A stretch of 64,000 nucleotides of DNA from Deminuibacter soli (GTDB lineage Bacteria > Bacteroidota > Bacteroidia > Chitinophagales > Chitinophagaceae), in NCBI RefSeq assembly GCF_003412455.1, contig NZ_QTJU01000001.1, positions 682,001-746,000 on the forward strand, given 5' to 3'. A program made the translations under genes and the position numbers. The notes below the pieces were generated by a model. That model made no database searches, was not told where the DNA came from, and saw only the letters and a list, made by a program, of their open reading frames with translations. This document shows positions 3,802 to 7,040 of this stretch, in pieces. Position 1 is the first letter of the stretch. Every line of letters starts with the position of its first letter.

Positions 3802-4791
3802 TTACAGCATTCCTTTTCCGGCAAGATACTCCGCGATCTGTACTGCGTTGGTAGCAGCGCCTTTGCGCAGGTTATCGCTTACAATCCACATATTCAGCGT
3901 ATTGGGCTGGGTATCGTCGCGGCGCAGGCGGCCTACAAATACTTCGTCTTTTTCGTGTGCCCACAGCGGCATGGGGTATACCTGGCCGGCAGTATCATCC
4001 TGTACTACAACACCGGGTGCATTGCGCAGGATGTTTTTCACTTCCTCTATATCAAAGTCATTCGCGAATTCAATGTTCACGCTTTCGCTGTGGCCGCCAA
4101 CAACCGGAATACGTACGGTGGTAGCAGTAACACGGATATTATCGTCGCGCATGATTTTCCTGGTTTCGTTCACCATTTTCATTTCCTCTTTGGTATAACC
4201 ATTGTCGAGGAACACGTCGATCTGCGGAATAACATTCAGGTCAATCGGGTATTTGTAAGCCATCTCGCCTTCCACACCTTTGCGTTCGTTTAACAGCTGG
4301 TCAACACCTTTTTTACCGGTGCCGGTAACACTCTGGTAAGTGCTTACCACAATACGTTTGATGGTGTATTTGTGGTGCAGCGGGTTTAAAGCCACTACCA
4401 TCTGGATAGTAGAACAATTGGGGTTGGCAATAATTTTATCCGCAGCAGTAAGCGCATCAGCATTTACTTCGGGTACTACCAGTTTTTTAGTAGCATCCAT
4501 ACGCCATGCAGAAGAGTTGTCGATAACAGTGATACCAGCTTCGGCATATTTGGGTGCCCACTCCAGTGAGGTGCCGCCGCCTGCTGAAAAGATAGCCACA
4601 GCAGGTTTTGCTGCAATACCGTCGGCCATGCTTACTACCTTGTAAGTGGCGCCTTTAAAGGTTACTTCCTTGCCTACACTGCGTTCAGAGGCTACAGGAA
4701 CCAGTTCGGTAACAGGGAAATTACGCTCTGCCAATACTTGCAACATTTTAGTGCCTACCAGTCCGGTTGCACCTACTACAGCTACTTTCAT
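3802..4791 (-). CDS. asd: Aspartate-semialdehyde dehydrogenase
   Basis: The enzyme reduces aspartyl phosphate to aspartate semialdehyde with NADPH. This is the branch intermediate for lysine/diaminopimelate, threonine, methionine and hence isoleucine. The protein has 329 residues, a normal length. The NADP-binding motif GATGLVG is at residues 7-13, the catalytic cysteine is C126 in NPNCSTIQ, and the substrate-binding region includes VPVVGGHSESVNIEF. It stands alone, downstream of a leader peptide rich in Thr, Met, Lys and Ile codons and a terminator-like hairpin (4829-4857). This suggests attenuation by the end products. Confidence 0.97.
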   Translation of the reverse strand: MKVAVVGATGLVGTKMLQVLAERNFPVTELVPVASERSVGKEVTFKGATYKVVSMADGIAAKPAVAIFSAGGGTSLEWAPKYAEAGITVIDNSSAWRMDATKKLVVPEVNADALTAADKIIANPNCSTIQMVVALNPLHHKYTIKRIVVSTYQSVTGTGKKGVDQLLNERKGVEGEMAYKYPIDLNVIPQIDVFLDNGYTKEEMKMVNETRKIMRDDNIRVTATTVRIPVVGGHSESVNIEFANDFDIEEVKNILRNAPGVVVQDDTAGQVYPMPLWAHEKDEVFVGRLRRDDTQPNTLNMWIVSDNLRKGAATNAVQIAEYLAGKGML

Positions 4792-4817
4792 TTTGTTGTA
4801 TCATTTTTGGTTTTGGA

Positions 4818-4857
4818 TAAAATTAAAAAGGCCTCCCCGGTTTGGGAAGGCCTATTG
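4818..4857 (-). terminator. Intrinsic terminator/attenuator upstream of asd
   Basis: On the minus strand the stem AGGCCTTCCC is paired with GGGGAGGCCT (one mismatch, 5-base loop) and followed by TTTTTAATTTT. It lies between the leader peptide (4880-4942) and the asd ATG (4791). It can end transcription from the peptidase gene or act as the attenuator of asd. Its 5' arm contains CTTCCC, which could instead pair with GGGAAG inside the leader peptide coding region (about 4888-4893). Confidence 0.75.
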
Positions 4858-4879
4858 TTATGTTTGTCATACACACACG

Positions 4880-4942
4880 CTAAGCTGCTTCCCTGGAGAA
4901 GAACATCTTTATGCGCTTTGTAATATGAATCATTTTTGTCAT
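4880..4942 (-). CDS. Putative leader peptide of asd (Thr/Met/Lys/Ile rich)
   Basis: A 20-residue frame, MTKMIHITKRIKMFFSREAA, starts at the ATG at 4942 and stops with TAG at 4880. Eleven of its first 13 residues are Met, Thr, Lys or Ile, the amino acids derived from the Asd product. A TAATTTTG -7 box (4978-4985) lies upstream and a terminator hairpin follows 23 bases after the stop. This is the arrangement of classical leader-peptide attenuators such as thrL of E. coli. Translation has not been shown, and the codon bias could be chance in so short a frame. Confidence 0.6.
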   Translation of the reverse strand: MTKMIHITKRIKMFFSREAA

Positions 4943-4977
4943 TGCTGTGCGAATGTAATGGATCGGCTTAAAAAAGC

Positions 4978-4985
4978 CAAAATTA
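4978..4985 (-). promoter_or_regulatory. -7 promoter box for asd leader transcript
   Basis: TAATTTTG on the minus strand fits TAnnTTTG. Initiation about 7 bases downstream would give a leader of about 180 bases before asd, containing the small peptide and the hairpin. No clear -33 TTG was identified. Confidence 0.45.
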
Positions 4986-5000
4986 TTTCCTGCTGATATA

Positions 5001-7040
5001 TTACCATATCTTAATGCGTTCTGCTTCCGGTTTGTACATCTTCTGACCAGGCTGTACATTGAATGCCTGGTAAAAAGGATCAAAGTTCATGAGCGGACCA
5101 TTTACACGGTACATGGCAGGTGAATGCGGATCGGTGTTGATACGCAGGCGTTCTGACTGCTCTTTCTGTTTGGTGCGCCAGATTTGTGCAAGCGACAAAA
5201 AGAAACGCTGGTCAGGTGTAAAGCCATCAATCTTCGTTGTGTCTTTACCCTGTTTGGTCATTTTAAATGCATCATAAGCAATAGCCACACCACCAATATC
5301 GGCCATGTTTTCACCAGTTGTTAAAGCACCGTTTACATGCACGGAATCAAGAATGGTGAAGCTGTTGTACAGGTTAATTACCTGTTGTGATTTAGCCTTG
5401 AATTTATCGAAGTCAGCCTTGCTCCACCAGTTTTTCAGGTTGCCGTCTTTATCGTACTGCGCACCCTGGTCGTCAAAGCCATGTGTCATTTCGTGGCCTA
5501 TTACCATACCTATACCACCGTAATTAATAGCGTCATCTGCATTCTCATCAAAGAAAGGGAACTGCAGGATGCCTGCCGGGAATACGATTTCATTGAAGGT
5601 AGGATTGTAGTATGCGTTGATCGTTGGTGGCGTCATGCCCCATTCGGTTTTATCAACAGGCTTGCCCACTTTACTCAGCTGGTACTGGTATTCGTTTTTG
5701 CTGGCAGACACCAGGTTTTCGTAATACTGGTTGCGGTTAATGGTTACCTTGCTGTAATCGCGCCATTTATCAGGATAAGCAATTTTTTTCAGGAAGGCAT
5801 GCAGCTTGTCTTTTGCTTTTGCCTTGGTGCTGTCAGTCATCCAGTCCAGCTTGCCCATGCGTGCTTCAAAAGATGCTTCCAGATTGTTTACCAGCTCAAG
5901 CATGCGTTTTTTGGCTGCATCGGTAAAGAAACGTTTTACATACAGCTGGCCCAGGGCTTCACCCAGGAAGGCGTCTGTGTTATCAGACATGCGCTGCCAG
6001 CGGGGTTTCAGCTGTTGCTGGCCACGCAGCGCTTTGCCGGAATATTCGAAATTGGCATTCACAAAATCGCTGCTTAATGAAGCGGCGGCACTATGCAGCA
6101 CATGAAAACGGAAATAGGTTTTCCAGGTATCTACAGGCGCAGTTTTCAGCAGTTCGTTTATTTTGGCGTAATAACCGGGCTGGCCCACATTCACTGAATC
6201 AGCTTTTACCCCAACAGCTGCAAGTATGCTGCTCCAGCCGAATACCGGCATGGATTTGTCGAGGTCTTTCACCGCCATTTTATGGTAGTTGCTTTCAGGG
6301 TCGCGCAGTTCAACATTGGTTTTATGGGCAGCAGCAATCTGTTTTTCGAAAGCAAAAACAGTAGCCGCTTTTTTGGCAGCAGTTACGGTATCATCGCCGG
6401 TAAGGTTGAACAGCCTGGCCACGTATTTCATGTACGCCTGTACAATGGCCTGGTTGGCAGCATCTGTTTTAAAATAGTAGTCCCTGTCAGGCAGGCCCAG
6501 TCCGTATTGTACATACACGGGGATATTCATGCTGCTGTTTTTTTCATCAGCACCGATATACTGGCCCAGTATAATGCCATCGCCTTCCTGCTGCTGTGCG
6601 GCAACAAAGTCCATAATGCCTTTGGCATCTTTAATGGCATCAATCTGCTGCAGATCAGGTTTTACAGGATCATAACCGCGTTTGTCAATGGCGGCAGAAT
6701 CCATGCCCGATGCATAAAAGTCACCCACTTTCTGTTCAATACTGCCGGCTGCCATACCACCTTTGGCAACACTGTCGAGAATGCTGCGCAGGTTAGCCCT
6801 GGTGCGGTTGCGGAGGTCGAGGAAAGAACCGATGCTCGATTCTGTGGGTGGGATTTCTGATTTCCTGAGCCAGCTGCCGTTGGCAAACAGGAAGAAGTTA
6901 TCGCCGGGTTTAACGGCAGAATCCATGTTTACGGTAACCAGGAAACTTTGGGCTGCTGTTTCCTTTGCACTGTTACCGCCGCACGATGTAAGTGCCAGTG
7001 CCATACAGGCCGCGGGTAGTGCATAGATGATTTTTTTCAT
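5001..7040 (-). CDS. M13 family zinc metallopeptidase (PepO/neprilysin-like) lipoprotein
   Basis: This zinc endopeptidase of 679 residues is probably anchored as a lipoprotein facing the periplasm or cell surface. The N-terminus MKKIIYALPAACMALALTSC ends in a lipobox, with Cys20 as the lipidated residue. The metal site HEMTH is at residues 516-520 and the third ligand lies in ENMADIGG. The C-terminus ends in IKIW; the M13 family usually ends in a short conserved W-containing tail. Peptidases of this family cut short peptides, and the substrate here is unknown. It is monocistronic, with terminator-like hairpins on both sides. Confidence 0.93.
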   Translation of the reverse strand: MKKIIYALPAACMALALTSCGGNSAKETAAQSFLVTVNMDSAVKPGDNFFLFANGSWLRKSEIPPTESSIGSFLDLRNRTRANLRSILDSVAKGGMAAGSIEQKVGDFYASGMDSAAIDKRGYDPVKPDLQQIDAIKDAKGIMDFVAAQQQEGDGIILGQYIGADEKNSSMNIPVYVQYGLGLPDRDYYFKTDAANQAIVQAYMKYVARLFNLTGDDTVTAAKKAATVFAFEKQIAAAHKTNVELRDPESNYHKMAVKDLDKSMPVFGWSSILAAVGVKADSVNVGQPGYYAKINELLKTAPVDTWKTYFRFHVLHSAAASLSSDFVNANFEYSGKALRGQQQLKPRWQRMSDNTDAFLGEALGQLYVKRFFTDAAKKRMLELVNNLEASFEARMGKLDWMTDSTKAKAKDKLHAFLKKIAYPDKWRDYSKVTINRNQYYENLVSASKNEYQYQLSKVGKPVDKTEWGMTPPTINAYYNPTFNEIVFPAGILQFPFFDENADDAINYGGIGMVIGHEMTHGFDDQGAQYDKDGNLKNWWSKADFDKFKAKSQQVINLYNSFTILDSVHVNGALTTGENMADIGGVAIAYDAFKMTKQGKDTTKIDGFTPDQRFFLSLAQIWRTKQKEQSERLRINTDPHSPAMYRVNGPLMNFDPFYQAFNVQPGQKMYKPEAERIKIW

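Follow-up and report, generated by a model that had tools for sequence, protein, structure and literature searches.

The window, that is, the whole 64,000-nucleotide stretch of DNA that was analysed, carries an asd gene on the minus strand. A promoter motif, a short open reading frame (ORF), and an intrinsic terminator lie upstream of it, together with several short segments that can pair with one another. The features are listed here from the promoter to asd, with the evidence for each in parentheses.

4978..4981, minus strand: leader promoter, -33 element TTTG, which lies within TAATTTTG at 4985-4978 (sequence and comparison of leaders)
4950..4957, minus strand: -7 box TACATTCG, consensus TAnnTT[TC]G (comparison of leaders)
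4880..4942, minus strand: leader ORF MTKMIHITKRIKMFFSREAA, 20 codons from the ATG at 4942, then a TAG ending at 4880 (read from the sequence; coding constraint in relatives)
4914..4927, minus strand: segment A, the His-Ile-Thr-Lys-Arg codons (CAT ATT ACA AAG CG), partly complementary to segment C (A:C helix, swap test)
4888..4893, minus strand: segment B, GGGAAG, candidate 5' arm of the antiterminator, complementary to the 5' arm D of the terminator (B:D duplex against shuffles)
4868..4879, minus strand: segment C, CGTGTGTGTATG, which pairs with A (A:C helix, swap test)
4857..4863, minus strand: ACATAAC element, with a near-invariant ATA at 4861-4859 (A in 98/98, T in 96/98, and A in 98/98 leaders of alignment A2)
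4825..4853, minus strand: intrinsic terminator, arms D (4853-4844) and E (4838-4829), and T-run (hairpin call and helix in 98 leaders)
3802..4791, minus strand: asd (aspartate-semialdehyde dehydrogenase), the presumed target of the regulation, ATG at 4791 (TIGR01296, 433.3 bits, cut-off 324.2)

A sequence-only reading of this region had described a 20-codon ORF before asd with Met, Thr, Lys, or Ile at 11 of its first 13 residues, followed by a terminator hairpin with a T-run and then the asd ATG. Direct reading confirms the ORF and its composition; the hairpin and the T-run are present, and the TIGR01296 match confirms asd. The hairpin, AGGCCTTCCC-AAACC-GGGGAGGCCT with the T-run behind it, has 10 base pairs, of which 7 are G-C. 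The TTTG element is separated from TACATTCG by 20 nt, TACATTCG from the leader ATG (4942) by 7 nt, and the terminator from the asd ATG by 33 nt. The segment 4788-4985 folds better than its shuffled versions (z = -2.69). The peptide encoded in the window has three Lys, two Thr, and three Ile residues and lacks two of the four Lys residues of the usual core described below; this leader is a divergent member of its family.

Distribution and promoter of the leader

The asd relatives comprised 80 loci from named genomes and 29 more added by a search of the family, Chitinophagaceae, in which 233 of 244 genomes were matched. A pattern script found a similar upstream ORF in 36 distinct loci and three identical copies among 110, and 11 of 15 script negatives inspected by eye also carry a leader ORF. 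Forty-one leaders including that of the window were aligned (A1; L016 and L105 had been dropped beforehand from 43 coded leaders), and the covariance model R1 was built from this alignment. The window leader scores 91.6 bits with R1 at 4825-4942 (E = 2.5e-13), its own sequence being among the 41 that built the model. Across the family, R1 has matches in 168 of 244 genomes at E ≤ 0.01 and in 140 at E ≤ 5e-6.

Among the best 150 R1 matches listed, 130 lie 21-233 nt (median 63) upstream of a listed asd gene on the same strand, within a limit of 700 nt. From the other 20, 18 regions were fetched, and 7 of them lie before asd and 11 before dapA. In total, 137 of the best 150 precede asd and 11 precede dapA, the remaining two being unplaced at contig ends. 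For 20 of the 150 asd genes listed, no R1 match is listed within 700 nt; two of these were inspected (G022 and G067), and both carry weaker-scoring leaders. Two weak matches within the family were also found to be real leaders on inspection, L170 before asd and L171 before hisG.

A scan of 198 genomes of the order gave matches in 13 genomes of other families (E from 6e-5 to 0.008). The best of them, in G321, has no asd seen downstream and was taken as a chance match, and weak matches of this kind are given no weight here. In a scan of 247 genomes of the class, 12 were matched at E ≤ 1e-4, three in the family and nine outside. Ten class-scan matches were fetched: eight lie before asd, one lies before hisG (TIGR00070), and one, a second match in G580, was taken as spurious. 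Four of the eight asd leaders come from one genus already in the model through L019, the leader of G648 being identical to that of L019, and the leaders of G550 and G580 are identical to each other. Thus, the independent support outside the family amounts to about three lineages (G550/G580, G542, and G577).

Many of the following counts refer to a set of 139 distinct leaders, 128 of asd and 11 of dapA, from which 4 of 143 had been removed as identical. The set is without L004, L086, and L101 (whose leaders were recognised but whose starts were not coded), L108 (a near copy of L106), L269 (GTG start), 6 of 86 regions that were not fetched, the R1 loci L111-L140, L029, L033, L172, the later leaders from outside the family, and the two contig-end matches.

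In 121 of the 139 leaders, TAnnTT[TC]G occurs within 24 nt 5' of the leader ATG, as against 1.6% of shuffled stretches; the shuffles here, and in the duplex and stalled-ribosome tests below, keep base composition only and not dinucleotides. The gap between box and ATG is 7-9 nt in 96 of these 121, and a TTTG lies 14-28 nt 5' of the box in 113, at 19 or 20 nt in 108 (shuffled rate 0.199). The TAatTTTG promoter box of the sequence-only reading has to be reassigned: the sequence, TAATTTTG, is there, but the comparison of leaders rules it out as the -7 box, which falls at TACATTCG, and leaves it as the holder of the -33 TTTG. A sigma-70 scan of 4000-6400 gave one site, fewer than the shuffle mean, and none at the leader. 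In Flavobacterium, the main text of one report places the same box at -12 to -5 (PMC9723704), which would put the 5' ends of the leader mRNAs about 3-5 nt upstream of the ATG. The leader transcript in the window should then start at about 4945, a predicted 5' UTR of about 3 nt, and be nearly leaderless. Such mRNAs are a minority: the same main text gives 5.5% leaderless mRNAs in one Flavobacterium (PMC9723704), and the accessible text of a Bacteroides study gives a 5' UTR shorter than 10 nt for 3.7% of mRNAs (PMC7366714).

An ORF that owns a promoter motif and a terminator might be a free-standing gene for a small peptide or a small RNA, asd having its own promoter. However, a promoter motif lies between the terminator and asd in only 1 of 42 loci, and this stretch measures 40 nt or less in 34 of 130 loci; a separate asd promoter downstream of the leader is unlikely. 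Furthermore, asd or dapA follows 148 of the best 150 listed matches (the other two are unplaced), and the peptides are 13-23 residues long in the 139 leaders, with varied C-termini. On these grounds, I consider a free-standing gene very improbable.

Coding constraint in the leader ORF

The peptides share a core, usually KHTKRTKK. Cores were found by a residue pattern, which is a mild bias, and 127 of the 128 asd leaders passed. Among these 127, Lys occupies core positions 1, 4, 7, and 8 in 105, 115, 113, and 107 leaders, and Thr occupies positions 3 and 6 in 103 and 72. The commonest replacement of the core Thr is Ile (19 and 35 leaders, respectively), and Met makes up 4.9% of the residues after the start. 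In frame, Lys makes up 25.9% of residues, compared with 7.7 and 11.6% in the two alternative frames. Thr stands out less, with 13.3% in frame and 3.6 and 11.4% out of frame. Divergent leaders such as MINFTNTTIKTIKGFPRGKA and MKLAIKHTTTTKKMHPKEEVA hold residues of this kind in a different order. The sequence-only reading had related the residue bias to all four end products of the pathway. Lys in the first place and Thr in the second are supported, but Ile occurs as the commonest replacement of the core Thr and Met is scarce, so that naming all four goes too far; the residue counts do not support Met, Thr, Lys, and Ile as equal signals.

The nucleotide changes are those of a coding sequence. 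Across the ungapped core of the 127 asd leaders, variability rises from a mean of 0.48 bits at codon position 1 to 0.84 at position 2 and 1.19 at position 3. Between nearest neighbours, 98 of 180 codon differences of a single base are synonymous, where 35.2 are expected; the nominal p of 4e-25 is a guide only, owing to the relatedness of the pairs. A chance ORF in AT-rich DNA is ruled out by the conservation, the frame controls, and the synonymous excess. By this coding constraint, the leader ORF is probably translated.

Translation of the leader ORF might in itself boost that of asd through ribosome re-initiation, the terminator being secondary, and the accessible text of one paper proposes such a role for leader genes generally (PMC4833913). 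However, the leader stop and the asd start are 79-288 nt apart in 36 loci, and the conserved terminator between them would be superfluous for re-initiation. This explanation seems even less probable than that of a free-standing gene.

Alternative pairings and a proposed switch

RNA structure was assessed in an alignment of 98 leaders (A2; 98/98 matched), which is without L012, L016, L082-L110, and the dapA leaders. The terminator helix is paired in 94.3% of cells, with changes on both sides in all 10 pairs. The A:C helix is paired in 80.9% of cells, and both sides vary in 9 of its 11 pairs, although A2 had been fitted to the terminator and A:C structure, which favours this helix. Taken jointly, A:C and the terminator outscore every one of the 500 shuffles and every slid version in all five measures. 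The A:C pairing, which joins the Lys/Thr codons to the segment after B and covaries, was absent from the sequence-only reading.

That reading had instead proposed an antiterminator of GGGAAG with CTTCCC, here B:D. The complementarity is present and conserved, with 83% of cells paired, but it does not covary more than shuffles do: the covariation score is equalled by 57 of 500 shuffles and the pairing by 30 of 500. Duplex energies in the 139 leaders are better than those with a shuffled segment at p ≤ 0.05 in 90% of cases for B:D and in 60% for A:C. When partners are exchanged between species, A:C becomes weaker in 108 of the 139 leaders and B:D in 87, which is weakly positive for B:D. By a loose motif, B falls within the ORF in 81 leaders and 3' of the stop in 49, and it is absent in 9 by the motif used. 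Thus, B is kept whether it is coding or not.

The ATA of the ACATAAC element, columns 99-101 of A2 between C and the terminator, is almost invariant. The element may pair with the TATG of C within the antiterminator; this weakly supported helix, C:F, is paired in 84.4% of cells and is itself nearly invariant. Another candidate, pairing of the ATA element with the TGTGT of C, was rejected as weak (63.3% paired, below one slid version at 76.0%).

In the alignment of the leaders of relatives, which had been proposed as a test, the start, the stop, the residue bias, and the alternative stems are conserved. The reading as a leader-peptide attenuator is supported by this conservation, by the coding constraint and the pairings, and by the modelled stalling described below. 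I therefore put at roughly 88% the probability that the asd leader is a ribosome-mediated transcription attenuator that would respond mainly to charged tRNA-Lys and, in this family, also to charged tRNA-Thr. At the level of sequence, the comparison establishes the ORF with its coding constraint, the codon bias, the promoter position, the terminator, the conserved complementarities, and the gene association.

The attenuator would work as follows. A transcript starting about 3 nt before the leader ATG would allow ribosomes to load immediately on a nearly leaderless mRNA. With ample Lys and Thr, the ribosome would reach the stop codon and cover B, the D:E terminator would form, and asd would be off. 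When Lys or Thr is short, the ribosome would stall on the Lys/Thr codons of A and leave B free; B would pair with D once D is made, and the polymerase would read through into asd. The A:C hairpin crosses B:D and should exclude it. It is likely to be the state without a ribosome on A, so that an untranslated leader would be shut off. Translation of the leader, stalling on it, and the transcriptional response are what the sequences lead one to expect.

These states were modelled by folding with the bases under the ribosome masked. In the stalled state, the ribosome was placed on the fourth core codon and the polymerase immediately downstream of D. In 136 of the 139 leaders, 7 or more bases of D then pair upstream, as against 24.6% with the preceding stretch shuffled. 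With the ribosome at the stop, 7 of 139 leaders show upstream pairing of D (threshold 5 bases) and all 139 form the terminator, a result of geometry and not of energetics, as the mask itself bars the pairing of covered bases. For leaders cut before E and free of ribosomes, A:C forms in 41 of 139, and in the window B:D forms instead. Thus, the protector role of A:C is the weakest step of the model.

Probable sensed amino acids and relation to known systems

The gene dapA encodes the first step of the lysine/diaminopimelate branch. The gene was identified by TIGR00674 at L143. Its leaders, for example MNLIKKYSSKKNISEREDA, contain 4.55 Lys per leader, as against 4.34 in the asd leaders, and 1.00 Thr as against 2.23 (p = 2e-4 without correction for relatedness). 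The eight asd leaders that the class scan gave outside the family, such as MMIKKIKCAKKLFR and MKMICKNKKHDKKLFHSGKGN, are likewise Lys-rich and have no or one Thr. Since the dapA leaders and the asd leaders from outside the family are both Lys-rich and Thr-poor, the comparison supports Lys as the common signal and Thr as an addition in Chitinophagaceae. I infer the dominant amino acid of the switch from these sequences.

The dapA leader is patchy: 30 loci were fetched (L174-L203), and it is present in 8 of the 23 that could be judged, the other 7 having no start by the pattern used. None was seen before the dapA gene of the genome of the window (L161, contig C1). His-rich leaders with a terminator, MIKFIHIHHRHTLLFG and MKQFTHIHHHHTFP, precede hisG at two weaker R1 matches, L171 (G125) and L325 (G489). 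Their layout is that of the asd leaders, with different sensor codons.

The ORF might also be incidental to a metabolite-binding riboswitch or a terminator controlled by a protein. An RNA structure exists, since A:C and the terminator covary and the ATA between them is almost invariant. However, codon-position bias and a synonymous excess would be out of place in an incidental ORF; the residues change with the gene that follows (Lys and Thr for asd, Lys for dapA, and His for hisG); and the divergent peptides MINFTNTTIKTIKGFPRGKA and MKLAIKHTTTTKKMHPKEEVA keep these residues in changed order. Furthermore, Rfam riboswitches are absent at E ≤ 5. Of the rival explanations this one is the least improbable, and I still give it only a slim chance.

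In the attenuators of the enterobacterial thr, his, trp, and phe operons, a short ORF rich in codons for the product is followed by a terminator and the gene, and an antiterminator competes with the terminator. The asd leader is similar in having an ORF with codons for pathway products, a terminator, and a competing antiterminator. It differs in its Lys/Thr codons, in its genes asd and dapA, in the predicted near-leaderless mRNA, and in a protective A:C pairing that crosses B:D and shares no strand with it. At the Rfam gathering level, there was no match in the window leader or in 11 related loci. At E ≤ 5, the segment 4770-5010 of the window has only weak matches, among them Thr_leader (RF00506, 15.9 bits) and Phe_leader (RF01859, 27 bits), for each of which the cut-off is 55. 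Scores of this size fit a shared way of working and not membership. The asd RNA motif (RF01732), Bacteroid-trp (RF01692), the lysine riboswitch, and the T-box had no match there at E ≤ 5. The accessible text of a survey of cis-elements assigns the former two to Lactobacillales and Bacteroidetes, respectively (PMC2864571).

Two published cases come close. SEP5 of Sinorhizobium is a translated small ORF that holds six codons for Thr and three for Lys and lies in the 5' UTR of what the authors call an "aspartate dehydrogenase" gene; the accessible text proposes it as a leader peptide and describes it as conserved only in Sinorhizobium (PMC10117765). SEP5 belongs to another phylum, that text describes no attenuator structure for it, and its likeness to the asd leader lies in the published description. 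In Flavobacterium psychrophilum, of the same phylum as the asd leader, 'strong clues' are reported for leader-peptide attenuation before operons of amino-acid biosynthesis, and structured 5' elements are named before pheA and hisG (PMC9723704); in the main text of that report, asd, dapA, lysine, and threonine do not occur. Within the open-access literature, no published leader of the Lys/Thr type was found for asd or dapA in Bacteroidota. Plasmids searched at the DNA level for the asd region gave eight short matches, none of them useful. The kind of attenuator is known; the sensor codons, the genes, the taxon, and the near-leaderless form set this one apart, and in that literature a Lys-type leader common to asd and dapA in Bacteroidota did not turn up.

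Other phyla control the lysine branch by riboswitches or T-boxes, and the leader peptides described to date respond to His, Thr/Ile, Leu, Val/Ile, Trp, Phe, and similar residues. A lysine-type leader peptide would enlarge this set. The regulation of amino-acid synthesis is little charted in Bacteroidota, and the present element, with a defined promoter, ORF, and both alternative structures, would link asd and dapA to the supply of lysine and threonine in the family. It would also show leader-peptide control on a near-leaderless mRNA, a rare class in the phylum. I would give even odds to a wider proposal, namely a scaffold common to the class Bacteroidia in which near-leaderless attenuators carry exchangeable codons (Lys/Thr for asd, Lys for dapA, and His for hisG), besides a second Thr/Ile type without a T-run before thrA. 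If the proposal is true, the lysine branch would be controlled via attenuation at lysine codons.

The thrA gene encodes a bifunctional aspartate kinase/homoserine dehydrogenase. By eye, 28 of 30 thrA loci (L284-L313) have a Thr/Ile-rich ORF upstream. Its last residue is nearly always Leu or Arg, and the stop codon after it sits within a hairpin of the kind CAACCC..TAA..GGGTTG. No clear T-run follows the hairpin, and these ORFs represent a second, different type of leader. No Rfam family at the gathering level was found in seven thrA leader loci. At the thrA gene of the genome of the window (contig C19:4112-6550; leader L167), the leader ORF lacks the usual stop and continues to RKGLCI.
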